From the NCBI RefSeq assembly GCF_000428825.1, contig NZ_AUAR01000003.1, forward strand, positions 124,001-188,000: a stretch of DNA of 64,000 nucleotides, read 5' to 3'. Source of the stretch: Desulfomicrobium escambiense DSM 10707 (lineage in GTDB: Bacteria; Desulfobacterota; Desulfovibrionia; Desulfovibrionales; Desulfomicrobiaceae). The position numbers and the translations under genes were made by a program. Positions 49,599 to 64,000 of the stretch are shown in pieces. The notes under the pieces are model-generated. The model saw nothing but the letters and a program-made list of their open reading frames with translations. It was not told where the DNA came from and did not search any database. How positions within the stretch are numbered: the stretch's first letter is position 1; the number at the start of each line of letters is the position of its first letter.

Positions 49599-50267
49599 TC
49601 AGCGTTCGTCGAAATAGACCTTGTGCTTGATGTTCACGCCCTGGGTGATGAAGACCACGGACTCGGCGATGTTCGTGGCCAAGTCCCCGATACGCTCGAT
49701 GCGGCGGATGAGGATGATGGTGTGCACGGAGCGCTCGATGGCCGGGGTGTCGTGGATCATGTACTCGATGACCTCGCGCATGTTCTTGTGGTTGAGTACG
49801 TCGACCTCGTTGTCCAGCTTGCAGACCTCCAGGGCCTCTTCGACGTTGCCCGAGGAGAAGGCCTGGGCCGCGTGCCGCAGCATGGCCAGAGCCTTGCCGC
49901 CCATCTCGCGGACGTTGTCCTGGAACGGCAGCGCCGGACGGGAGCTGAGCATGATGGAACGCTCGGCGATGTTGACCGCCTCGTCGGCGATGCGCTCCAG
50001 GTCGACGCTGATGCGCATGCATCCCAGGATGAAACGCAGGTCTCCGGCCACGGGCTGCTCCAGGGCCAGAAGGCGCAACCCCAGTTCGTCGATCTCCACC
50101 TCCAGCCGGTTGACCTCGACATCCCCGTCCTGGACCTCTTCGGCCAGGTACAGGTCCTTGTTCACGTAGGCCTTGATGGACTTCTCGACGGCGTCCTCGG
50201 TCAGGGCCACCATCTTCAGGACCTTCAGCTTCAATGTCTCTATCTCTTCATGCAAATGCGTATACAT
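49599..50267 (-). CDS. phoU: Phosphate signalling protein PhoU
   Basis: A 222-residue all-helical protein with the two PhoU repeats, including the metal-binding ERIADEAVNIAE and ERIGDLATNIAE motifs. PhoU links the Pst transporter to PhoR and represses the Pho response when phosphate is plentiful. It is last in the phoB-phoR-pstB-phoU unit, 51 bases after pstB, with AAGGAAG upstream, and is followed by a strong terminator. Confidence 0.95.
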   Translation of the reverse strand: MYTHLHEEIETLKLKVLKMVALTEDAVEKSIKAYVNKDLYLAEEVQDGDVEVNRLEVEIDELGLRLLALEQPVAGDLRFILGCMRISVDLERIADEAVNIAERSIMLSSRPALPFQDNVREMGGKALAMLRHAAQAFSSGNVEEALEVCKLDNEVDVLNHKNMREVIEYMIHDTPAIERSVHTIILIRRIERIGDLATNIAESVVFITQGVNIKHKVYFDER

Positions 50268-50318
50268 ACTTCACTTCCTTTGAAATTTTCGCGAATTGCC
50301 GTTTCACCGGGGCACACA

Positions 50319-51080
50319 TCAGCCGAAACGCCCGGTGATGTAGTCTTCGGTCTGCTTGTTCTCCGGCCTGGTGAACAGCTTGTCCGTGGGACCGACCTCA
50401 ACGAGGCGCCCCATGTAGAAAAAGGCGGTCCTGTCCGAGACGCGCGCGGCCTGCTGCATGGAATGCGTCACGATGACGATGGTGAACCTGCTCTTGAGCT
50501 CGTGGATGAGTTCCTCGATCTTCTGGGTCGCAATGGGGTCCAAGGCCGATGCCGGCTCGTCCATGAGCAACACCTCGGGCTCCACGGCCATGGCCCGGGC
50601 GATGCAAAGGCGCTGCTGCTGCCCGCCCGACAGGCTCAGGCCCGACTGGTCCAGGCGGTCCTTGACCTCGTCCCACAAGGCGGCGAGCTTAAGGCTCTCC
50701 TCCACGCGGGCGTCGATGAAGTCCCGGTCCCTGACACCGTTGACGCGCAGCCCGTAGGCCACGTTCTCGTAGATGCTCTTGGGAAAGGGGTTGGGCTTCT
50801 GGAAGACCATGCCCACGCGCCGGCGTAGCACCACGACGTCGTGGGACGGGTCGTTGAGGTCCTGCCCGTCCATGGCCAATGCCCCTTCGATCCGCGTGCC
50901 GTCGATGAGGTCGTTCATGCGGTTGATGCAGCGCAGGAAGGTCGACTTCCCGCAGCCGGAGGGCCCGATGAGGGCCGTGGCCTGATGCTGGTACATGTCG
51001 AAGGAGATGTCCTGCAGGGCGTGGAAGTCCGAATAGTAGAAGTTGAGATTTCTGGAAGAAATCTTGACTGTATCTGCCAT
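50319..51080 (-). CDS. pstB: Phosphate ABC transporter ATPase PstB
   Basis: A 253-residue ABC ATPase with Walker [10 protein letters not shown] (39-47), signature LSGGQQQR, Walker B VLLMDEP and the PstB-typical [20 protein letters not shown]. It energises phosphate import with PstSCA, none of which lie in this window. It begins two bases after the phoR stop codon. Confidence 0.96.
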
Positions 51081-51082
51081 GT

Positions 51083-52885
51083 CTATTCCTCTGATGTCCG
51101 CCCCGCGACGGGGAGTGTGATGATGAAGCGTGAACCGGTCCCGGTCTCGGGCACCGGGCTCTGGACGGTGATCCGACCGCCGTGGCTGACCATGATGTGC
51201 CGACAGATGGCCAGGCCCAGGCCCGTACCGCCGATGGAACTGTTGCGGTCCTTCTCCACTCGGTAGAACCGCTCGAAAATCCGGCTCTGGTCCTCGGCCG
51301 GGATGCCGGGGCCGTTGTCGTCGATGAACACGGACAGCTCGCGGCCGGAGGCTTCCGCGTGGACCCGAATCCGGGCCGTTTCGGCCGGCACGTACTTGAG
51401 CGCGTTCTCCAGCACGTTGCGGAAGACCTGCACCAGTTGTTCGAAATTGGCACGCACGGCGGGAATGCCCTGGGCCAGTTCGTTGGCGAAATCGACCTTC
51501 TTGCGCAGAGGATGGCAGCTCTTCCAGGCCGAATACAGGGCCGAGGCCGGATCCACGGAGACCATGTCCACCCGCTGCTTGCCGTGCTCGAGGCGGGAGA
51601 GCTGCAGCAGCTCGTCGAGCATGGTGTTCATGTGGTTGGCGTTGCGCTGGATGACCTCCAAAAAGGTGCGCGTCTGCCCGGGGTCGTAGCTGTCCAGTCC
51701 CAGCAGCGTCTCGGCGTAGCCCTTGATGGACGTCAGGGGCGTACGCAGCTCGTGCGACACGTTGGCCACGAAATCGCGCCGGATCTGTTCCACCCGCCTG
51801 ATCTCCGTGATGTCGTGAAAGACCATGATGGCCCCGAGCTCGGCGTCGCCCTTGATGGGTACGATGGACACGTCGAAGCTCCGCCCGCTCTGGAGGGCGA
51901 CCACGACGTTGCCCTGGGAAAAATCGCCCGCCTTGCGTTTCGCCAAGGCGATGTCGCAGGCGTCCTGCAGGCCCTGCAGGAGACAGAGTTCCATGGGCTT
52001 GCGCCCGGCGAAGGTCGAGAGACCGGGAAAAATCTCCTGGGCCGCGTAGTTGCCGCGCAGGATGTGGCCCCGCCCGTCGAGGACGATGAGGCCCGCCTTC
52101 ATGCCGTTCAGCACCGCCTCGGACTCCATCTTCTGCTTGACGATGGTCTGCATGTTGGACTCGATGCGTTCCAGCATGTTGTTGAAAGCGGTGACCAGCG
52201 GCGTCATTTCCGTGCTCGGGGAGAAGCGGATGCGCTTGCCTGGCCCGCCCTGCCCGATGTCGGCCGCGGCCTGGGCAACGCTGGAGATGGCCCGCGAGAC
52301 CTGCCGCGACACCAGGGAAACCAGCCCGAAGGCCAGCACGATGCTGAAGCCGTAGACCCAGCCAGTATGCCCGTAGAGGCTGTCCAGCGTCTTGCGCATC
52401 TGGCTCTGGGGCCGGGCCACGCGCACGACCCCTTCCGGGACAGCGGCGCTTCCGCCGAACCTGCGGGCGACATAGAGCAGATTCTGGCTCAAGGTGTCGC
52501 TGTAGCGCAGACTCGTGCCGATTTCGCCGTCCATGGCCTGCAGGACTTCCGGCCGGCCGGCATGGTTCTCCATGAGGCCAACCTGTTGCGCCGCCACGCC
52601 GGAGTCCGACAGCACGGAGCCGTCCAGAGCGATGTAGGTGATGCGGATCTGCATGCTCGCCGCGAGATCCCGCAGCACGCCCCCGAGCGAGGGACGCTCG
52701 GTCACGCCGGACAGCGCCCATTCGACGGTCTGCAGGTCGCGTAGCGCGCCCTCCCTGGCCTCGCGCTCGATGGTCTGGCCCAGATTCTGGCGCAGATGGT
52801 ACGCCGGAAGTCCCAGGGCCAGCAGCAAAATGACCCCGAAGGCCAGAAGTAGCCGCAGCCGCAGGGAAATCGGTGGTGTGGTCAT
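51083..52885 (-). CDS. phoR: Phosphate-regulon sensor kinase PhoR
   Basis: A 600-residue membrane kinase with a first membrane helix (about residues 8-25), an extracytoplasmic domain of about 135 residues, a second helix (about 170-190), HAMP, PAS (about 255-360), H box [20 protein letters not shown] and an HATPase domain. The extracytoplasmic domain makes it larger than the E. coli PhoR and closer to Gram-positive PhoR. It sits seven bases after phoB and just before pstB. Confidence 0.92.
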
Positions 52886-52892
52886 GTCTGTC

Positions 52893-53588
52893 CTAGTCGG
52901 TCTGATTTTCTCGTTTCATGCGGTACCCGATGCCGCGGACCGTCTCCAGCCAGTCGGCATACGGCCCGAGCTTCTTGCGCAGCCGCCGCACATGGGTATC
53001 GACGGTGCGGGAATATCCTTCGAACTCGTACCCCCAGGCATTGCTCAGGAGCTGCTCGCGCGAAAGCACCTTGCCCTCGTTGCGCACGAATTCGCCGAAC
53101 AGGTTGAACTCCGTAGGGGTGAGGTGCGCGTCGGACCCGTCCACCAGAAGGGTGAAGGCCTCGAAATCGGCCACCAGGCCCTCGCGCTGCCAGTGGGCGA
53201 CCTTGGGCATGATGTTCACGTTGCGGCGCAGGACCGTCTTGATGCGCAGCATCAGTTCCCTCGGGCTGAACGGCTTGATGACGTAGTCGTCGGCGCCCAA
53301 CTCGAAGCCGAGGATGCGGTCGACCTCGTCCCCGCGGGCCGTGAGCATGATGATGGGTATGTGGGCGCAGTCGGAGCTGCCCTTGATGGCCTTGCACACG
53401 TCGGTGCCGCTCATGCCGGGCAGCATGAGATCCAGCAGGACCAGGTCCGGCCGTTCGCTCTGCACCAGCTGCAGACCCTTCCTGCCGTCGCGGGCCACGA
53501 AGCAGTCGTAGCCGCCCGACTTCAGATGGAAGGCCAGCAGATTCGCGATATCCGGTTCGTCTTCGATGACGACGATCTTGTGAGCCAT
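52893..53588 (-). CDS. phoB: Phosphate-regulon response regulator PhoB
   Basis: A 231-residue OmpR/PhoB-type regulator: receiver with acidic residues IEDEPD, phospho-acceptor Asp53 (LLDLMLPGMSG) and a KPF lysine, then a winged-helix domain ending in VRGIGYRM. It is the first gene of the unit, with a Pho box 68 bases upstream, which indicates autoregulation. Confidence 0.95.
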   Translation of the reverse strand: MAHKIVVIEDEPDIANLLAFHLKSGGYDCFVARDGRKGLQLVQSERPDLVLLDLMLPGMSGTDVCKAIKGSSDCAHIPIIMLTARGDEVDRILGFELGADDYVIKPFSPRELMLRIKTVLRRNVNIMPKVAHWQREGLVADFEAFTLLVDGSDAHLTPTEFNLFGEFVRNEGKVLSREQLLSNAWGYEFEGYSRTVDTHVRRLRKKLGPYADWLETVRGIGYRMKRENQTD

Positions 53589-53803: not shown

Positions 53804-54563
53804 AGGGCAGGATACGGCCGGAGCGCAGCTCGTCGATGCCGCAGAGCATGAAGCCGAGGATGGGACGGCATTTTTCCGCGCACGGCGCGAAGAACCGACC
53901 GTGGGTCCGGGTGCCCGACCGATTCTCCTGGCCGACGTAGAACTCGGCCAGGGCCAGGGGGACGAGACCGTGCAGGGCGGCGTGGTGCAGGAGCTTGGGG
54001 GCGCAGCACTCGCCGGTGCCCGTGGGCATGGCCCGGCCGAGGAAGACATCGCGCAGGGCGCGCCGCTGCCCCCGAAAATTGGCCGGGCGGTAGAGGTCGA
54101 AGATGCGTTCCATCAGGCTGGCGGACAGAGCCCGACGTTCGGCCAGGAAATCGCGGCGCAGAGGGTCGTCTGGCGAGAGGGCGGCGATGCGGGCGGTCAG
54201 GGCCTTGATGCGCGGCTCGTCGTCACGGATCGTGCTCTGGAACTGCGCGGGGTCAACGATGGGCCGCACCCAGCCCGGCACCTCCCAGACGCCGTTGTAC
54301 TGTCCGGAGAAGGCCTTGAGCACCCGCTCGTTCCCCCGCCCGTCCAAGCAGACCAGCACCCCGAACATCTGGCCGCGGGCCGGCCCGAAGAGGTAGTCGA
54401 GGCCCAGGCGCGGGTCGCCGCAGGGCTGCGACGCGATGCTCCCCCGCGTCTCCATTTCCGCCATGAGGGCCAGAGCGTGCGGCTTTGCGGGGGCTGCGGG
54501 CAGGACGTGCTCCCGCCCGCAGTCCCGGCAGAACCCGACGCAGTCCTCGACGGACCGGGTCAT
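53802..54563 (-). CDS. Stand-alone RluA-associated N-terminal domain protein
   Basis: A 253-residue protein with a CxxC pair near residues 12-15, a segment FGPARGQMFGVLVCLD, a helical stretch ending in IFDLYRPANFRGQRRALRDVF, then GTGECCAPKLLHHAALHGLVPLALAEFYVG and CAEKCRPILGFML. I recall this pattern as the N-terminal domain of the long RluA-type pseudouridine synthases, but the catalytic HRLDxxTSG domain is absent here. Several conserved cysteines could bind metal. It overlaps the upstream regulator gene by ATGA and ends the operon. The function is unproven. Confidence 0.5.
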   Translation of the reverse strand: MTRSVEDCVGFCRDCGREHVLPAAPAKPHALALMAEMETRGSIASQPCGDPRLGLDYLFGPARGQMFGVLVCLDGRGNERVLKAFSGQYNGVWEVPGWVRPIVDPAQFQSTIRDDEPRIKALTARIAALSPDDPLRRDFLAERRALSASLMERIFDLYRPANFRGQRRALRDVFLGRAMPTGTGECCAPKLLHHAALHGLVPLALAEFYVGQENRSGTRTHGRFFAPCAEKCRPILGFMLCGIDELRSGRILP

Positions 54564-55969
54564 CCGTCCGCCTGCAGCCCGAAACGCTTCATCTTCCGCC
54601 ACAGGGAGGCCCGGTCGATGCCCAGGAGCCGCGCGGCCACGGTGCGGTTGCCGTCGACATGGGCCAGGGTCCACTCGATCTGCTCCCGCTCGCACTCCTC
54701 CAGGGTCATGGGCTGGCGCTCGCCGGCCCGGACCAGACGGCGCGGGGCTTCGAGCAGTTCGGGCGACAGGTGCACCGGCAGAATCTCGTCACCCGTGCAG
54801 AATACCGCCGCGCGCTCGATGATGTTCTGCAGTTCGCGCACGTTGCCCGGAAAGGCGTAGCGGGACAGGATGTCGAGCACTTCGGCCGAGACGCGCGGCG
54901 CGGGCCGCCCGCTCTCCCTGGCCGCCTTCTCGGCGAAGAAGTGGGCCAGCAGGGGCAGGTCCTCCAGGCGCTGCGCCAGGGGCGGCATGTCCAGCACCAG
55001 GACGTTGAGCCGGAAATAGAGGTCCTGGCGGAAGCGGCCGGCCTCGACCTCGGTCCGCAGGTTCTTGTTCGTCGCCGCCACCAGCCGCACGTCCACGGGG
55101 ATGTCCGCCGTGCCGCCGACGCGGCGGATGGTCCTCTCCTGCACGGCCCGCAGCAGCTTGACCTGCATGGCCAGCGACATCTCCCCCACCTCGTCGAGGA
55201 AGAGCGTGCCCCCCTCGGCGGCCTCGAACAGTCCCTTCTTCTGCCGCGTGGCGCCCGAGAACGCGCCCTGCTCGTGCCCGAACAGCTCGCTCTCCAGCAG
55301 CTCCTCGTTGAAGGCGCCACAGTTGATGGCCAGGAAGCGCGCCTCGGAGCGGCGGCTGAAGAGGTGGACCATGCGCGCGGCCACTTCCTTGCCCGTGCCC
55401 GTCTCGCCGAGGATGAGCACCGTCACGTCGGACGGGGCGATGCGCGCAATGGTGCCTTTGAGCTCACGCATGCAGGGGGCCTCGCCCAGCAGCGGCACGG
55501 GCAGGGTCCGATCCTTGAGCTGCTCGCGCAGGCGCGCGACCTCGAGCCGCAGGCGGCGCTTCTCCAGGGCCTTGTGCACCAGGAGCCGGGCCTCGTCGAG
55601 GCGGTAGGGCTTGGCCAGATAGTCGTAAGCGCCTGCGCGCATGGCCTCCACGGCCGTGTCCACGGTGGGGTAGCCGGTGATGACCACGATCTCGATGTCC
55701 GGGTGCCGCTCCTTGGCCGCCTTCAGCAGGGCCAGGCCATCCATGCCTTCCATCATGAGGTCCGTCAGGATCAGGTCGAAGTCGGCGCCCTGCAGAAGCT
55801 CCAGCGCCTCCTCCCCGCCCCCGGCCGTAACGGTCTCGTGTCCCTGTCGGGCCAGGGCCAGGGCCAGGTTGTCGCGGGAGATGACCTCGTCGTCGACCAC
55901 GAGGATCCTGGCGGCCCGCTCCGCCGCCACCCCGTCCCCTGCCCGCGCGGCACCGCGCGCCGGGCTCAT
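54560..55969 (-). CDS. NtrC-type sigma-54 response regulator
   Basis: A 469-residue regulator: receiver (Asp70 in ILTDLMMEGMDG), AAA+ domain with Walker A GETGTGKE and the GAFSGA variant of the sigma-54 contact loop, which is common in functional activators, and a Fis-type helix-turn-helix. It overlaps its upstream kinase gene (ATGA). The divergent sulfate-permease operon with a sigma-54-like promoter 3.7 kb away is a plausible target. Confidence 0.9.
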   Translation of the reverse strand: MSPARGAARAGDGVAAERAARILVVDDEVISRDNLALALARQGHETVTAGGGEEALELLQGADFDLILTDLMMEGMDGLALLKAAKERHPDIEIVVITGYPTVDTAVEAMRAGAYDYLAKPYRLDEARLLVHKALEKRRLRLEVARLREQLKDRTLPVPLLGEAPCMRELKGTIARIAPSDVTVLILGETGTGKEVAARMVHLFSRRSEARFLAINCGAFNEELLESELFGHEQGAFSGATRQKKGLFEAAEGGTLFLDEVGEMSLAMQVKLLRAVQERTIRRVGGTADIPVDVRLVAATNKNLRTEVEAGRFRQDLYFRLNVLVLDMPPLAQRLEDLPLLAHFFAEKAARESGRPAPRVSAEVLDILSRYAFPGNVRELQNIIERAAVFCTGDEILPVHLSPELLEAPRRLVRAGERQPMTLEECEREQIEWTLAHVDGNRTVAARLLGIDRASLWRKMKRFGLQADG

Positions 55970-57435
55970 CGCGCGCCCTCGGCGGCGCCGGCCAGAGGCA
56001 GCCGGATGGTGAAGCTCGTGCCCCGGCCCGGTTCGCTCTCCACCCCGATGGACCCGCCGTGCTTCTTGATGATGCCGAAGACCACGGCCAGGCCGAGGCC
56101 CGTGCCCGTCTCCTTGAGGGTGAAGAACGGGTCGAAGATGCGGCCCATGTGCTCGCGCGGGATGCCGGCGCCCGTGTCCCGGATCTGCAGCACAGCCAAG
56201 GGTGCGGACGGGTCCTTGTGCGCGGACAGGGTGATGGTGCCGGGCGGCGTGATGGCTTGGATGGCGTTGATCATCAGGTTGAGGAGCACTTCCTGGAAAC
56301 GCTGGCCGTCCAGGGGCAGCTCGATGTCCGGCGGGATGTCGGTCACGATGTTCACACCCGACGGCACTTCGCTCGACACCAGGCTCACGGCCCGCTGCAC
56401 GACCTGATGCAGGGGCGTCGCCTTCAGGCTGAAGTCCGTCTCCCGCGCGAACTCCAGCAGTCCCTTGACGATGTCCCGCGAGCGGCTGACCTCCTGGTAG
56501 ATGTTGTCGAGCATGTGCCGGGTCAGGGTGGGGTCCGGCGGCTGGGGCGCGTCGAGGTCCTCCTGCAGAATCTGGCAGGACGTGGAGATGTTGTTCAGGG
56601 GGTTGTTCAGCTGGTGGGCGATCCCCGAGGTCAGCACGCCCAGGGAGGCGAGCTTCTTCTCCTGCAGGAGCTGGCTCTGCCTGCGGTCCAGTTCGACGAT
56701 CATGTGGTTGAAGGCCTCGACCACGCCGCGGGTCTCGTCGCTGGTGTCGGGCAGGGGCAGGGCCTCGAAGTTGCCCTGCACGATCTGTCGTGCCGAGCGC
56801 TCGATGACGCCCAACGCCCCGAAGATGCGCCGCCCCACGAGCCAGGAGAAGAAGGCCGCCACGCCGGTGAAGGCCGCGATGGCCAGGACCAGCTGGTGCT
56901 TGAGGGTCGCTACGATGCCCAGGATCCTGGCCCGCTGCGTGGCCACGAACCTGTGGACCAAATCCACGAGGTCCTTGCCCTGATCGCGCAGGTGCGGGTC
57001 GGAAGTCGAGGACTGGACCATGGCGTGCGCATTGCCGTCCGTTTTCAGACCGGCGAAGGTTTCCTTGTAGGAGCTCAGGTCCTGCCGCAGTTCGAGCAGC
57101 GTCGCACGCCCCTCGCGGTCGGAGCTGCTCAGCCCGCCCTCGGGGTTCTCGATGCGGTCGATGATGCTCAGGGCGCTGTCGCAGTAGCGCATGGTCTCCA
57201 CGTAGTCGGCCTCGCCCATGTAGAGGAGGTAGTTCTTCTCGTAGCGGCGGATTTCGAGGATGTCGCTGCTCAGGTCGTCCACGACCTCGGCCAGGGCCAG
57301 GGCCTCCTCGATCTGCAGCAGGTACTTGTAGGAGATGCCGCCCAGCACGGAAAACCCGAGGATGCTCAGAATCATCCCGAACAGGACGATGCGGCGGATC
57401 TTGCCGCTGGCGAAACGGGAGATCAGTCCGTACAT
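55966..57435 (-). CDS. Membrane sensor histidine kinase with HBM-like sensor
   Basis: A 489-residue kinase with a first membrane helix (about residues 15-34). The helical extracytoplasmic region contains RRYEKNYLLY, as in HBM sensors. A second membrane helix (about 180-200), HAMP, and a kinase core follow; its H box reads SGIAHQLNNPLNNIS, with Gln where most relatives have Glu, and DTGAGIP and TGLGLAVVFGI boxes follow. It starts 13 bases inside the end of the Lon-receiver gene and overlaps the regulator gene, so all three are translationally coupled. Confidence 0.88.
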   Translation of the reverse strand: MYGLISRFASGKIRRIVLFGMILSILGFSVLGGISYKYLLQIEEALALAEVVDDLSSDILEIRRYEKNYLLYMGEADYVETMRYCDSALSIIDRIENPEGGLSSSDREGRATLLELRQDLSSYKETFAGLKTDGNAHAMVQSSTSDPHLRDQGKDLVDLVHRFVATQRARILGIVATLKHQLVLAIAAFTGVAAFFSWLVGRRIFGALGVIERSARQIVQGNFEALPLPDTSDETRGVVEAFNHMIVELDRRQSQLLQEKKLASLGVLTSGIAHQLNNPLNNISTSCQILQEDLDAPQPPDPTLTRHMLDNIYQEVSRSRDIVKGLLEFARETDFSLKATPLHQVVQRAVSLVSSEVPSGVNIVTDIPPDIELPLDGQRFQEVLLNLMINAIQAITPPGTITLSAHKDPSAPLAVLQIRDTGAGIPREHMGRIFDPFFTLKETGTGLGLAVVFGIIKKHGGSIGVESEPGRGTSFTIRLPLAGAAEGAR

Positions 57436-59450
57436 GCGCCACCTCCCTTGTGGTCCAGGACCACGGCCAGGGCCTGCTCCACCCGCTCGACCAGCGTGAC
57501 CGGCGGCAGCTCCCCGACGCTCTCGCGCAGGGCCTCCACATCAGCCGCGTTGGCCGCGGGCAGGACGACCATGGCGGCCCGTCCGCGCAGGGCCGCCAGA
57601 ATCTTCTCGCGCACCCCGCTGACCGGCAGCACCCGGCCCACCAGGGACAGCTCGCCGGACAGGGCCACGTCGGAACGCGCCGGCCGGCCCGTGAGCAGCG
57701 ACACCAGGGCCACGGCGATGGTCAGTCCGGCCGAGGGGCCGTCCTTGGCCACGCCGCCGGCCGGGATGTGGATGTGGATGTCGTGGCCCTCGAAGAAATC
57801 CTCGGCCACGCCCAGAGTCCGAGCGTTGCTGCGGATGAAGCTCAACGCGATCTGGGCCGACTCCTTGAGCACCCCGCCCAGGGAGCCCGTCAGGATGAGC
57901 TGGCCGGGCCCGGTCATGCGCGTGGCCTCGACGAAGATGATCTCGCCCCCCGTTTCGGACCAGACCAGTCCCGTGGCCGTGCCCACGATGGCCCCGGCGG
58001 CGGCCGCGTCGTGGCGGAAACGCGGCGGCCCGAGGAGCACCGCCGCGCCTTCGGCGCTCACGGGCGCGGCCACGGCCTCGGCCCCGCCGTCCAGGCGCAG
58101 ACGGGCCAGCTTGCGGCACAGGCGGGCGATCTCGCGCTCCAGGCCGCGCACGCCGGACTCGTTGGTGTATTCGCGGACAATACGCACCAGGGCCTCGGGC
58201 AAGATGTCCGGGTACGGGTTGACCAGGCCGTGCTCGCGCAACTGGCGCGGCAGCAGGAAGCGGGAGGCGATGTCCATTTTCTCGGCCTCGGAGTAGCCCG
58301 AGAACTGCACGACCTCCAGCCGGTCCAGCAGAGGGCCGGCCAGGCGTTCCACGCCGTTGGCCGTGGCGATGAAGAGGACCTCGGACAGGTCGAAGGGGAT
58401 TTCGAGATAGCGGTCCACGTAGCGCGCGTTCTGCTCGGGGTCGAGGATTTCGAGCATGGCCATGGCCGGGTCGCCCTTCACGTCCTGGCCGATCTTGTCC
58501 ATCTCGTCGAGCATGAAGACCGGGTTGCGCACGCCCACGCCCCTGAGGGCCTGGAGGATGCGGCCGGGCATGGCCCCGACGTAGGTCCGTCGGTGGCCGC
58601 GCAGCTCGGCCTCGTCGCGCAGGTCGGCCAGGGACATGCGGTAGAAGCGCCGCCCCAACGCCTCGGCGATGGCCCGACCCACGGACGTCTTACCCACGCC
58701 GGGGGGGCCGACGAAGCACAGGATGGGCGCTCGGCTGGTGTAATGGCGCGTGCGGGACTGCAGGGCCGTGCGCACGGCCTCGCGCAGCTCGCTCAAGTCG
58801 ATGGGCTTGGACAGGTAGTGCACGGCCCCGGTTTTGAGAGCGCGTACGGCCGTGTCCACCGTGGCGTAGCCCGTGACGAGAATGAACTTGGCTTCCGGGG
58901 CAACCTCCCTGGCCGCCTCCAGGAGCTGCATGCCGTCCATGCGCTCCATCTTCAGGTCCGTGACGATGCAGTCGAACTCCTTGCGCCTGAGCAGTTCCAG
59001 GGCCTCCTCGCCGTTGGCCGCGACGTCCACGTCGTAGCCCTCGCGGCCGAGCACGTGCCGCAGGTTCGAGCGGGCGATGGGCTCGTCGTCGACGACCAGC
59101 AGCGAGGCCTGGCGCTTGGTCTGCAGCACGCGGGAAGCCAGGTGCTCCAGCACCCGCTCCCGGACCTGCCCCAGGCCCGCGTGACTGCCGTCGAAGACCT
59201 TCGCCGCCTGCCCCAGGTCGAGATTGTCCTGGGTCAGGGCGCTCCACGGCAGGGCCAGAATCGTTTCCACGTAGTTCAGGGCGATGGAGTATTCCCCCAC
59301 GGACGAGTCGGTCTTCTCCATCCGGCCGATCTCTGACTCCAGCACCGCCCGCACGTTCTCGGGCACATCGGCCTGCCGGCATTTTTCCCGAAGTCCCGTA
59401 GGGTCCTCGGTCTGAGCCGGCGCCTCAACTTCCTGCTTGCGAAAAAACAT
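57423..59450 (-). CDS. Lon protease with inserted response-regulator receiver domain
   Basis: A 675-residue fusion. Residues about 20-110 match the helical segment before the ATPase in Lon (EYSIALNYVETILALPWS; TQDNLDLGQAAKVF). About 115-230 is a complete receiver: Asp121/Asp122, phospho-acceptor Asp165, Lys215. The Lon AAA+ domain follows, with Walker A GPPGVGKT (248-255), Walker B LDEMDK (Asp315-Glu316), RDEAELRGHRRTYVGAMPGR and Arg377. The peptidase domain has the catalytic dyad Ser573 (KDGPSAGLT) and Lys616. The N-terminal substrate-binding beta domain of Lon is missing. It is the first gene of a four-gene overlapping unit with a kinase and a sigma-54 regulator. Phosphorylation probably controls protease activity (inference). 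Confidence 0.92.
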   Translation of the reverse strand: MFFRKQEVEAPAQTEDPTGLREKCRQADVPENVRAVLESEIGRMEKTDSSVGEYSIALNYVETILALPWSALTQDNLDLGQAAKVFDGSHAGLGQVRERVLEHLASRVLQTKRQASLLVVDDEPIARSNLRHVLGREGYDVDVAANGEEALELLRRKEFDCIVTDLKMERMDGMQLLEAAREVAPEAKFILVTGYATVDTAVRALKTGAVHYLSKPIDLSELREAVRTALQSRTRHYTSRAPILCFVGPPGVGKTSVGRAIAEALGRRFYRMSLADLRDEAELRGHRRTYVGAMPGRILQALRGVGVRNPVFMLDEMDKIGQDVKGDPAMAMLEILDPEQNARYVDRYLEIPFDLSEVLFIATANGVERLAGPLLDRLEVVQFSGYSEAEKMDIASRFLLPRQLREHGLVNPYPDILPEALVRIVREYTNESGVRGLEREIARLCRKLARLRLDGGAEAVAAPVSAEGAAVLLGPPRFRHDAAAAGAIVGTATGLVWSETGGEIIFVEATRMTGPGQLILTGSLGGVLKESAQIALSFIRSNARTLGVAEDFFEGHDIHIHIPAGGVAKDGPSAGLTIAVALVSLLTGRPARSDVALSGELSLVGRVLPVSGVREKILAALRGRAAMVVLPAANAADVEALRESVGELPPVTLVERVEQALAVVLDHKGGGACTD

Positions 59451-59488: not shown

Positions 59489-59579
59489 GCTGCAATCTGC
59501 AACAGCGCTGCAATCTGCAGCACCTCCGGCAAACCGGGCTTGTTATAGATTTCACGTTCTCGGCGTTGTAATTTGCAAC
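59489..59579. promoter_or_regulatory. Three near-palindromic operator-like copies (GYTGYAAnnTGCARC)
   Basis: GCTGCAATCTGCAAC (59489-59503), GCTGCAATCTGCAGC (59507-59521) and GTTGTAATTTGCAAC (59565-59579). Each is a near-palindrome of 15 bases. They lie 40-130 bases upstream of the Lon-receiver gene and 75-165 bases upstream of the sigma-54-like element at 59655, a normal place for enhancer-binding protein sites. Confidence 0.65.
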
Positions 59580-59624: not shown

Positions 59625-59641
59625 ATTTCAGCATGTTATAA
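59625..59641. promoter_or_regulatory. 17-base motif shared with the exporter locus
   Basis: ATTTCAGCATGTTATAA, 15 of 17 identical to 45594-45610. It ends 13 bases before the sigma-54-like -24 box of the sulfate-permease operon. It could alternatively be part of a sigma-70 -10 region (TATAAA). Confidence 0.5.
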
Positions 59642-59654
59642 AAAAACCAACTTC

Positions 59655-59670
59655 TGGCACGGGCCTTGTT
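59655..59670 (+). promoter_or_regulatory. Sigma-54-like promoter of the sulfate permease operon
   Basis: TGGCAC, 5 bases, TTGTT: a perfect -24 box and correct spacing, with GT instead of GC at -12, giving a leader of about 27 bases before the 58-aa gene. Three operator-like copies lie upstream and a sigma-54 activator gene is in the divergent operon. Confidence 0.55.
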
Positions 59671-59707: not shown

Positions 59708-59884
59708 ATGAGCACCATCCGAGAAACGATTGAAGACACCTACGCTGCCAATGCCTTTGCCGAACGGGGCCTGACCAAGGACGCCCAGATTCTGCTCAAG
59801 GGTGAAAGCCGCCAGACGGCGGTCAAGGCCGATGCCGTCAAGCAGGTCGAAAAGCGCCCGCGTCCCACGCTCCACGCCAAATAG
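59708..59884 (+). CDS. 58-residue soluble protein of unknown function
   Basis: A small charged, helical protein without membrane segment or cysteines (central TKDAQILLKGESRQTAVKAD). Clear GAGGT ribosome binding site. It is first in the transport operon, 27 bases before the UspA-like gene. I do not recognise a family. Confidence 0.65.
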   Translation: MSTIRETIEDTYAANAFAERGLTKDAQILLKGESRQTAVKADAVKQVEKRPRPTLHAK

Positions 59885-59911: not shown

Positions 59912-60439
59912 ATGCCTCGAAACTGGTTACGAAACACGTTGCACCCGGGCACGCCCAGCCTGCGGCGTGCCAAATCCGTCGAAGACCGCCTGGCCGACTA
60001 CACCGAAGCCGTGGCCCTGGCCGAGGCCGGGGAACAGATGCTCGCCTCGGACGTCATCCGGCACAGCGGCACGGGGCGCAGGCGCATTCTGGTCATCGGG
60101 CACGGCTGCACCTTCTCCTCGCACCTGGGGGAATACGCCCTGAGCGTGGCGGAGCGGATGGGCAGCGACCTGCTCTTCCTGAGCGTCGGCCTGCCCAAGA
60201 AAGACCCGAACTGGCGGGAGTCGTTCAGCCAGTTGGCGGACAACGCGGCAGGCCACTGGCGGGAAGCCGCGGAGCGGCAGAATCTGAATGTCCAGCACGA
60301 AGTGCGGTTCGGCACCGTGGACGAGGCTGTGAGCGAGCTCGTCCGCAGCTGCGGCAGGATCGAATTCATCCTGAGCGAACCAGAGGAAGGCGAACAGGTC
60401 CTGGGCCAGACGGGCCTGGCCCTGTTCACGGTCAAATGA
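59912..60439 (+). CDS. UspA-like universal stress protein
   Basis: A 175-residue protein. After about 55 charged residues, a Usp-type alpha/beta domain starts with RRILVIGHGCTFSSHLGEYALSVAERMGSDLLFLSVG and ends with ILSEPE and GLALFTVK. The nucleotide-binding GxxGHG loop of ATP-binding Usp proteins is not obvious, so it may not bind ATP. AGGAG ribosome binding site. Usp-like genes beside SulP or TauE permeases suggest a regulatory role (inference). Confidence 0.72.
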   Translation: MPRNWLRNTLHPGTPSLRRAKSVEDRLADYTEAVALAEAGEQMLASDVIRHSGTGRRRILVIGHGCTFSSHLGEYALSVAERMGSDLLFLSVGLPKKDPNWRESFSQLADNAAGHWREAAERQNLNVQHEVRFGTVDEAVSELVRSCGRIEFILSEPEEGEQVLGQTGLALFTVK

Positions 60440-60545: not shown

Positions 60546-62756
60546 ATGGCCACGTTAGTTCTGAAAGTGATCCCGTTTTTCGGTTGGATCAGAACATATT
60601 CCGCCGCCCATCTCAAAATGGATTTCATGGCCGGACTGACCGTGGCCCTGGTGCTCATCCCCCAGAGCATGGCCTATGCCCAGCTCGCCGGGCTGCCCCC
60701 CTACTACGGGTTGTACGCCTCCTTCCTGCCGCCCCTGGTGGCGGCCCTTTTCGGCTCCAGCCGCCAGCTCTCCACCGGCCCCGTGGCCGTGGTCTCGCTC
60801 ATGACGGCAGCCTGCCTCGAACCCCTGGCCACCGCGGGCGGCGAGAGCTACATCGCCTACGCCGTGCTGCTGTCCCTGGCGGTCGGCTTTTTCCAGCTGT
60901 CCCTCGGCGTGCTTCGCCTGGGCCTGGTCGTCAATTTCCTCTCCCACCCCGTGGTGGCCGGATTCACCAACGCCGCGGCCATCATCATCGCCACCAGCCA
61001 GCTGGCCAAGATGTTCGGGGTGTCCGTGGACAGCGCCGAGCACCACTACGAAACCGTGCTGCGGGTCTTCCGGGCGGCCATGAACTACACGCACTGGCCG
61101 ACGCTGGCCCTGGGCGTCTTTGCCTTCGCCCTCATGTTCGCCCTGAAACGCTTCTGCCCCCGCGTCCCGAACGTGCTGGCGGCCGTTGTCCTGACCTCGG
61201 TCTTCGCCTGGGCCACGGGCTTCGAGCATAACGCATCCATCGGCATCCAGTCCCTGGAGGCCCCCCAGGCCTCCGAGGCCGTGACCGCCTACAACGCGGC
61301 CATACAGGGCCAGGCCGATCTCGCCGCCAGACGCACGGCCCTGACCTCGGCCATGGAAGAGGCCAGGGCGCACGGCGAACTCTTCGCGATCGTCGACGAG
61401 GAGCACGAACTGCGCCGCCTGTCCCTGGAAATGGAGATCACCAAGAGCAAGGCCAGAAGCCTCAGGGAAGCGTTGCGCGGCATGCTCTTCCAGGCCGTGA
61501 CGGAAGCGGACGGAAGGCTGAAATTCTACCCCTTCGGCAGCCCACTCCCCAACGGAGAGGTCAACGACGGCCGGACCTGGCGCATCCGCGTCGGCAACTC
61601 CGCCCTGGACCCGGTGTCCCTGACCATGATCGGGGGCGGCGCGGTGGTGGGCGCGGTGCCCGGCGGCCTGCCCCCCTTCAGCGTGCCGCGTTTCGACGCG
61701 GGGGTCATGCTCAGACTCCTCCCCAACGCCGTCATCATCGCGCTGCTGGGGTTCATGGAGGCCATTTCCATCGCCAAGGCCATGGCCGCGAAGACAGGCC
61801 AGAGCCTGGACCCGAACCAGGAACTCATCGGACAGGGTCTGGCCAACATCTTCGGCGCTTTCAGCAGGAGCTACCCCGTCTCCGGGTCCTTCTCCCGCTC
61901 GGCGGTCAACCTGCAGGCCGGGGCCCTGACAGGGTTCTCAAGCGTGTTCACCAGCGCCATGGTGCTCGTGGCCCTGCTCTTCTGTACCCCGCTTCTCTAT
62001 CACCTGCCGCAGTGCACCCTGGCCGCGGTCATCATGATGGCGGTCATCGGCCTGATCCAGCCTTCGGGGTTCGTTCACGCCTGGAAGGTCGCCAGATACG
62101 ACGGCGTCATCTCGGTCATCACCTTTCTGGCCACCCTGGCCTTCGCCCCCCATCTGGACAAGGGCATCATGATCGGCGTGGTCCTGTCCCTGGGCGTCTT
62201 CCTGTACCGCAACATGCGGCCCATGGTCAGCTCCCTGGCCCGGACCGAGGAAGGCGAACTGCGCGACGCGACGCGTCACGGACTGGCCCTGTGCACGCAC
62301 GTGGACCTGGTCCGCTTCAACGGACCGCTCTTTTTCGCCAACGCGAGCTTCCTGGACGAGACCATCACCCGCCGCCTGCAGTCCAAGAAGCGCCTGCGGC
62401 ACATCGTGCTGGTGGCCAAGGGCATCAACGACATGGACGCCTCGGGCGAAGAGGCCCTGTCCCTGGTCGTGGACCGCTGCCGCAGCCGGGGCGTGGACAT
62501 CTCCCTGGCCGGCGTCAACGACACGGTCATGGCCATCCTGGCCCGCAGCGGCCTCCTGGACAAGATCGGCCGGGACCACATCTACGCCAATATGGAAAAG
62601 GCCCTCTGCACCGTGCACGCCGGCGCCCACCACGGGAGCGACGAAGCGCGGTGCCCCCTGACCTCGGCCTGCCAACTGCACGTGCGGCCGCAGGTCGCGC
62701 AGCCCCGGCCCAGGGCCTTCGCGGCCGCCGGCGCCGCGCATGACGATCGACAGTAG
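60546..62756 (+). CDS. SulP family anion permease with STAS domain and large inserted region
   Basis: A 736-residue permease. The transport domain starts with DFMAGLTVALVLIPQSMAYAQLAGLPPYYGLY, here followed by the usual helices. It is interrupted at about residues 235-370 by an insertion rich in charged helix (LRRLSLEMEITKSKARSLRE) before the conserved GGLPPFSVP segment. A cytoplasmic STAS domain lies at about 590-705. SulP proteins import sulfate, bicarbonate or other anions, and in a sulfate reducer sulfate is likely. The insertion is absent from typical SulP proteins of about 550-600 residues. AGGAG ribosome binding site. A His/Cys/Ala-rich tail ends the protein. Confidence 0.9.
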   Translation: MATLVLKVIPFFGWIRTYSAAHLKMDFMAGLTVALVLIPQSMAYAQLAGLPPYYGLYASFLPPLVAALFGSSRQLSTGPVAVVSLMTAACLEPLATAGGESYIAYAVLLSLAVGFFQLSLGVLRLGLVVNFLSHPVVAGFTNAAAIIIATSQLAKMFGVSVDSAEHHYETVLRVFRAAMNYTHWPTLALGVFAFALMFALKRFCPRVPNVLAAVVLTSVFAWATGFEHNASIGIQSLEAPQASEAVTAYNAAIQGQADLAARRTALTSAMEEARAHGELFAIVDEEHELRRLSLEMEITKSKARSLREALRGMLFQAVTEADGRLKFYPFGSPLPNGEVNDGRTWRIRVGNSALDPVSLTMIGGGAVVGAVPGGLPPFSVPRFDAGVMLRLLPNAVIIALLGFMEAISIAKAMAAKTGQSLDPNQELIGQGLANIFGAFSRSYPVSGSFSRSAVNLQAGALTGFSSVFTSAMVLVALLFCTPLLYHLPQCTLAAVIMMAVIGLIQPSGFVHAWKVARYDGVISVITFLATLAFAPHLDKGIMIGVVLSLGVFLYRNMRPMVSSLARTEEGELRDATRHGLALCTHVDLVRFNGPLFFANASFLDETITRRLQSKKRLRHIVLVAKGINDMDASGEEALSLVVDRCRSRGVDISLAGVNDTVMAILARSGLLDKIGRDHIYANMEKALCTVHAGAHHGSDEARCPLTSACQLHVRPQVAQPRPRAFAAAGAAHDDRQ

Positions 62757-62809: not shown

Positions 62810-63106
62810 ATGGCCACATCTCAATCTGACAAGAAGCCCATCGGACGGACCCTGGTTTTCGGCGCCCTGACCGCAGCCTTCTACACGGGATTTTTCGCTT
62901 ACGGCGACGCCATCGCGGCCCAATTCGCGCAGGGTTCCTTCTGGGCGGCAGGACCCATCGCCACGGTTTTCGCCGTGTCCTACCTGCACGGCGAATTCGC
63001 CAGCAACCTGTGGGCGACCCTGGGCGTTTCCGCGATCCGCAAGGATACGCGCAAGACCGCCGAAGCCACCAAGCGTCCGGCCCAGCGCCCTGTCCTCAAC
63101 GCCTGA
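62810..63106 (+). CDS. 98-residue membrane protein in sulfate transport operon
   Basis: A small protein with two hydrophobic helices (about residues 14-33 and 44-58) and a basic, Arg/Lys-rich cytoplasmic tail. It has a GGAG ribosome binding site and lies between SulP and TauE/SafE genes with short spacers, so it probably belongs to the same transcript. The family is not recognised with certainty. Perhaps an accessory subunit of one of the permeases. Confidence 0.72.
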   Translation: MATSQSDKKPIGRTLVFGALTAAFYTGFFAYGDAIAAQFAQGSFWAAGPIATVFAVSYLHGEFASNLWATLGVSAIRKDTRKTAEATKRPAQRPVLNA

Positions 63107-63132
63107 TCCCACGTCACGAAGGAGACATCGTA

Positions 63133-64000
63133 ATGGATATCTTAAGCCTCGATCCCACCAAGTTCATTGACCTCAACACCATGGCCGTCATCTTCCTCTT
63201 CCTGGTCGGCTTCATCGGCGGTCTGGTCAGCGGCTTCATCGGCTCCGGCGGCGCCTTCGTGCTCACCCCGGGCATGATGAGCCTGGGCGTGCCCGGCACC
63301 GTGGCCGTGGCCAGCAACATGTGCCACAAGTTTCCCAAGGCCCTGGTCGGCGCCATCAAGCGCTACCGCTACGGCCAGGTCGACGTGAAGATGGGCCTGA
63401 TCATGGCCGCTTCGGCCGGCATCGGCGTGCAGATCGGCATCAAGATCCAGCAGGTCATCCTGGCCATGTGGGGCCAGGCCGGGTCCGACCTCTACGTCAG
63501 CCTGTCCTTCGTTTTCGTGCTGGTCTTCGTGGGCGGCTACGTCATGAAGGATGCCATCAAGTGCGCCCGCTGCGGCGGCGAGGAAGAGACCACGGCCCTG
63601 GCCAAGCGCCTGCAGAAGATCGAGCTGTGGCCCATGATCAACTTCCCGCGCTCGGGCCTGCGCATCTCCCTGTGGTTCACCCTGCCCGTGGGCTTCGCCA
63701 CCGGCATCCTGGCCGCCACCATCGCCGTCGGCGGATTCGTGGGCGTGCCCGGCATGATCTACGTCATGGGCGTTCCCGGCCTCATGGCCTCGGCCACGGA
63801 ACTGGTCATCGCCTTCGTCATGGGCCTGGGCGGCTCCATCAACTGGGCCATGCACGGCATGGTCGACATCCGTCTCGTCCTCATCATCCTCGGCGGGTCG
63901 CTCCTGGGCGTCCAGCTCGGTGCCATCGGCACGACCTACGTCCGGCCGCACATGATCAAGATGGTCATGGCCACCATCATGCTCATCGTGGCCGTCAGCC
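63133..64000 (+). CDS. TauE/SafE family permease, 3' end outside window
   Basis: The first 289 residues of a membrane protein with the TSUP (TauE/SafE) signature: VGFIGGLVSGFIGSGGAFVLTPG at the start and a second similar module beginning LPVGFATGILAATIAVGGFVGVPG. Family members export sulfite, sulfoacetate or related anions. A cytoplasmic loop has a CARC pair. AAGGAG ribosome binding site, 26 bases after the 98-aa gene. No stop before the window end, so the gene continues. Confidence 0.88.
   Translation, partial: MDILSLDPTKFIDLNTMAVIFLFLVGFIGGLVSGFIGSGGAFVLTPGMMSLGVPGTVAVASNMCHKFPKALVGAIKRYRYGQVDVKMGLIMAASAGIGVQIGIKIQQVILAMWGQAGSDLYVSLSFVFVLVFVGGYVMKDAIKCARCGGEEETTALAKRLQKIELWPMINFPRSGLRISLWFTLPVGFATGILAATIAVGGFVGVPGMIYVMGVPGLMASATELVIAFVMGLGGSINWAMHGMVDIRLVLIILGGSLLGVQLGAIGTTYVRPHMIKMVMATIMLIVAVS

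Follow-up and report, generated by a model that had tools for sequence, protein, structure and literature searches.

Three palindromic sites upstream of a σ54 promoter, probable targets of the adjacent NtrC-type regulator, at a receiver-Lon locus of Desulfomicrobium escambiense

Three 15-base palindromes lie between a receiver-Lon gene and a divergent operon for stress and transport proteins in D. escambiense, and we consider it highly likely that they are upstream activating sites through which the adjacent NtrC-type response regulator (54560–55969) switches on that divergent operon. The sites are conserved together with a σ54 promoter, from which they stand at a near-fixed distance, and their sequence co-varies with the recognition helix of the regulator. 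Coordinates refer to the window, that is, the whole 64-kb stretch of DNA that was analyzed.

Palindromes, promoter and flanking genes

The first-pass annotation had described three near-palindromes in the Lon-receiver/SulP intergenic region, and three such sites were indeed present, with start-to-start spacings of 18 and then 58. Its form for them, GYTGYAAnnTGCARC, fitted all three without mismatch and could be refined to a symmetric 6-3-6 palindrome, GTTGCAnnnTGCAAC (GTTGCA-n3-TGCAAC). The elements of the region and the genes on both sides, with domains assigned by Pfam unless otherwise indicated, are as follows.

54560–55969, minus strand: NtrC-type response regulator (receiver, σ54 AAA+ domain with GAFSGA, Fis HTH), the proposed binder
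55966–57435, minus strand: sensor histidine kinase (HAMP, HisKA, HATPase)
57423–59450, minus strand: receiver-Lon protein, matching DVU3303 in architecture and gene order
59489–59503, no strand: palindromic regulator site 1, GCTGCAATCTGCAAC, 1 mismatch to the symmetric form
59507–59521, no strand: palindromic regulator site 2, GCTGCAATCTGCAGC
59565–59579, no strand: palindromic regulator site 3, promoter-proximal, GTTGTAATTTGCAAC
59626–59638, plus strand: putative IHF-like element, TTTCAGCATGTTA, between enhancer sites and promoter
59655–59670, plus strand: σ54 promoter (−24/−12), TGGCACGGGCCTTGTT
59708–59884, plus strand: 58-aa ORF, first gene of the divergent operon, no Pfam family
59912–60439, plus strand: Usp-like protein of 175 aa, weak Pfam Usp match below the cut-off
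60546–62756, plus strand: SulP anion transporter with STAS domain
62810–63106, plus strand: 98-aa protein, membrane-like by sequence, no Pfam family
63112–63999, plus strand: TauE/SafE permease, running off the window end

Transcription on the minus strand thus proceeds from receiver-Lon to the histidine kinase and then to the σ54 response regulator. Further along the same strand, at 49599–53588, lies what appears from its sequence to be a phosphate-type regulatory cluster (PhoU-like, PstB-like ATPase, PhoR-like kinase, PhoB-like regulator).

The pattern GYTGYAANNTGCARC matched all three sites with 0 mismatches, and a scan of the whole 64 kb found no further perfect match. When 2 mismatches were allowed, the degenerate pattern had 7 matches in the window against 6.4 expected; since it is not rare at this stringency, the clustering of the sites is what counts. 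When the 258-nt intergenic region was shuffled 5000 times, three sites with at most 2 mismatches to GTTGCANNNTGCAAC never appeared and two sites appeared once.

Conservation of the sites and their geometry

Phylogenetic footprinting had been proposed as the test that could refute the motif, which survived it. The upstream regions of 98 receiver-Lon genes, mostly from Desulfovibrionales, were gathered from the order, from named genome contigs and by direct extraction, with 4 duplicates left out. More distant Lon loci (L055 onward) lacked both the regulator and the motif, save for one partial regulator match, and were for that reason not included in the sample. With at most 2 mismatches to the symmetric pattern, 196 sites were found in 91 of the 98 regions, relatives that are not independent of one another, compared with 3.6 sites in dinucleotide shuffles of the same regions. 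None of the other 179 permuted half-sites gave more than 17 sites, and a gap of 3 between half-sites was the only one that worked, other gaps yielding at most 12 sites.

Within the genus, all three sites occupied identical places in 10 of 10 genus-level rows, and the sites and the promoter formed conserved islands, with a majority fraction of 0.88–0.96 versus 0.64–0.74 in the surrounding spacers. The closest named relative was Desulfomicrobium sp., its receiver-Lon protein being 97% identical, and the same sites were present in genome G039, taken as D. baculatum. Genomes of the genus without a full-length receiver-Lon gene had no close pair of sites with at most 1 mismatch, except for G079, in which a contig end carries the start of a receiver-Lon gene. 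It is exceedingly improbable that the palindromes are a chance or structural feature, such as hairpins or repeats, with no regulatory role: the abundance of two-mismatch matches across the whole window would fit such a reading, but conservation over 98 regions with an exact gap and a near-fixed promoter distance speaks against it, and the excess of observed over shuffled sites rules out a chance origin of the motif.

The first-pass annotation had placed the sites 75–165 bases upstream of a σ54-like promoter, which agrees with the present measurement, the start of the promoter lying 76 bp beyond the last site and 166 bp from where the first one begins. In 77 of the 98 loci, compared with 1.2 in shuffles, a σ54 promoter was found that is directed toward the Usp side and away from receiver-Lon. 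From the nearest palindrome centre to the −24 GG, the distance was 83–88 bp in most loci (84 in the window), with minorities at 60–62, 74–80 and 102–105; values of 141–164 mostly reflected a proximal site that fell below threshold. Dyad sites that hold a fixed place ahead of a −24/−12 promoter are the arrangement of a σ54 enhancer module, and the conserved sites, promoter and near-fixed geometry bear out the earlier proposal of enhancer-type sites (PMC3333781, PMC4641369).

The element at 59626–59638 is a candidate IHF site. It lies at an offset of −29 from TGGCAC; of the 76 promoters, 39 had their best TTCANNNNGTTA match at −27 to −29 from TGGCAC, where about 3.5 would be expected if matches were evenly spread. 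The window copy has 2 mismatches to the IHF consensus, which is that of E. coli, and is weakly conserved within the genus (0.64). The IHF reading is reasonable because the σ54-dependent orp promoters of D. vulgaris need IHF (PMC3897727).

The regulator and the direction of its action

In nearly all loci examined the regulator gene adjoins the receiver-Lon and kinase genes, and the GAFSGA loop is found in the window regulator and many of its relatives. In one genus (g20, 8 genomes) the recognition helix IDR[AV]S is replaced by LNRGS, with GCTGCA in place of GTTGCA as the half-site: position 2 of the half-site was C in 36 of 44 cases and T in 0 of 44 with LNRGS, whereas with IDR[AV]S it was T in 80 of 100. 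This co-variation is probably a single phylogenetic event in one clade, and it therefore supports but does not prove the pairing of regulator and operator. Asymmetric sites of the form GTTGCA-n3-TCGAAC, in fixed orientation, were seen upstream of receiver-Lon genes in several genera (L022, L024, L025, L027, L028 and L045); they occur with an unchanged IDRAS helix, which does not explain them.

Given this linkage, the helix co-variation and the D. vulgaris literature (PMC3333781, PMC4641369), the adjacent NtrC-type regulator is very probably the owner of the sites, as had been suggested. An operator for a different, unlinked regulator is very improbable. Isolated single sites elsewhere in the genome would be consistent with such a regulator, but the motif, the regulator gene and the promoter are tightly linked over many genera, the recognition helix co-varies with the half-site, and DAP-chip analysis of DVU3305 in D. 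vulgaris (PMC3333781) likewise points to the adjacent protein.

A genome-wide scan for the motif had also been put forward earlier; at 2 mismatches the scan of the organism's own genome returned 55 places against 38 in the control, a modest excess. Eight single sites among the matches listed were inspected, of which 7 are covered by an open reading frame of a putative gene, and no convincing linked σ54 promoter was found at any of the 8. Two weak σ54 matches lay within 300 bp at L011. Some repeated own-genome matches (GTGGTAGAGTGCAAC) we take to resemble tRNA genes.

We infer that in this species, too, the regulator binds these exact sites in response to a signal. The neighbouring histidine kinase would activate the regulator by phosphorylation, and regulator dimers would bind the palindromes and then assemble into an AAA+ ring. 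Aided by a bend that an IHF-like protein would introduce near 59630, the regulator would open the σ54 promoter at 59655–59670 and thereby turn on the divergent operon (58-aa ORF, Usp, SulP, 98-aa protein and TauE), producing a stress and anion-transport response.

The suggestion that one regulator could act in both directions from these sites was not supported in its σ54 form. No σ54 promoter facing the Lon-receiver gene was found in the window, and a σ54-like match in that orientation was found in only 4 of the 98 loci; the paired promoters of a bidirectional σ54 enhancer were thus not found, and no σ54 promoter faces this operon in D. vulgaris either. The regulator may still affect the Lon-receiver operon in some other way, since DVU3305 binds between both operons and its own operon is counted as a target. 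Because the sites lie 39–129 bp upstream of the Lon-receiver start with no σ54 promoter facing it, they might also control the Lon-receiver/kinase/regulator operon via a σ70-type promoter, most likely by negative autoregulation. This is a possibility that we hold tentatively and that is compatible with activation of the divergent operon. Consistent with it, the first site match lies about 23–63 bp upstream of the Lon-receiver start in most group B relatives and is also close in the genus. A weak minus-strand −10-like TATAAC (59547–59542) is accompanied by TTACAA inside site 3. Moreover, the own operon is among the DVU3305 targets of Rajeev et al. (2011; PMC3333781), and Kazakov et al. (2015) reported no σ54 promoter at DVU3303-3305 (PMC4641369). 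On the other hand, a promoter scan toward the Lon-receiver gene gave no σ70 match and TATAAC is not conserved across the genus, while the expression of the two operons was reported to be positively correlated (PMC3333781), which argues against repression.

Transporter cargo and relation to known systems

The earlier label SulP for the divergent side is too narrow, for the operon starts with the 58-aa ORF and the Usp-like gene, and SulP is local. The 58-aa ORF is kept as the first divergent ORF in many Desulfovibrionales. Of the 66 loci whose upstream sequence reached 3.9 kb or more, 38 had a divergent Usp and 32 a divergent TauE; SulP was found here in no genus but Desulfomicrobium (1 of the 66, plus short-flanked congeners) and was absent from the loci of some congeners. 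SulP is thus a local addition, and the conserved cargo is Usp together with an anion permease of varying family. The same control region precedes a Usp-like gene and a permease of another family in L160, L177, L145, L147 and L141, that of L160 being CitMHS/TrkA-C. With the same sites and promoter before a Usp-like gene and a CitMHS/TrkA-C permease in other genera, the control region is more widespread than the transporter it drives. Speculatively, the locus may be a cassette that keeps its control region and swaps its transporter cargo, with receiver-Lon restraining the response as a proteolytic brake gated by phosphorylation; we regard this as rather unlikely. Such a cassette would comprise receiver-Lon, kinase, regulator, sites, IHF-like element and σ54 promoter at near-constant spacing, and its cargo would be SulP plus TauE, TauE alone, or a CitMHS/TrkA-C permease.

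Within the literature searched, the receiver-Lon system is described solely in PMC3333781, PMC4641369 and PMC10102598, and most of the biology is already published for a relative; the present locus is a further member with a better-defined operator geometry and modest additions. For this three-component stress system of sulfate reducers, widespread yet little understood, an operator sequence and the geometry of its promoter are thereby provided, and co-variation ties the operator to its regulator. In fitness data the three regulatory genes behave as a unit and are harmful under chlorate, a condition in which the target transporter, DVU3299, is of benefit (PMC10102598). This difference in sign is unexplained, and the defined sites make the puzzle directly testable.

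In D. vulgaris the three-component system consists of DVU3303 (Lon-receiver), DVU3304 (kinase) and DVU3305 (regulator), and DAP-chip gave its own operon and DVU3302-3298 as the DVU3305 targets (Rajeev et al., 2011). Where orthologs occur, in some Desulfovibrio species, in D. baculatum and elsewhere, the Lon partner and the binding site have for the most part been retained (PMC3333781). Kazakov et al. (2015) listed DVU3305 as a GAFSGA protein with two targets, DVU3302-3298 and DVU3303-3305, of which the latter lacks a σ54 promoter (PMC4641369). Judged by its sequence, the window locus is the predicted Desulfomicrobium counterpart of the DVU3303-3305/DVU3302-3298 system of D. vulgaris Hildenborough: receiver-Lon, kinase and GAFSGA NtrC-type regulator occur together in the same gene order, a divergent Usp/transport operon with a σ54 promoter is present in both, and in both the regulator operon is without one. 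The likeness to the DVU3305 site lies in its reported conservation in D. baculatum, and the case for orthology is built on the domain architecture, the order of the genes, the GAFSGA loop and this connection through D. baculatum. Unlike the DVU3305 system, the window operon also carries a SulP gene, and the arrangement of three sites spaced 18/58 bp is peculiar to Desulfomicrobium. With the generic σ54 enhancer module with IHF, for example at the D. vulgaris orp operons (PMC3897727), the locus shares upstream activator sites, a −24/−12 promoter and a candidate IHF bend between them, IHF being suggested here by a positionally conserved element. The molybdate-related DVU0539-0545 system (PMC10102598) likewise sets a two-component regulator beside an operon that encodes Usp proteins, a putative sulfate exporter and a small transmembrane protein, but its regulator and its transporter family differ from those of the receiver-Lon locus.
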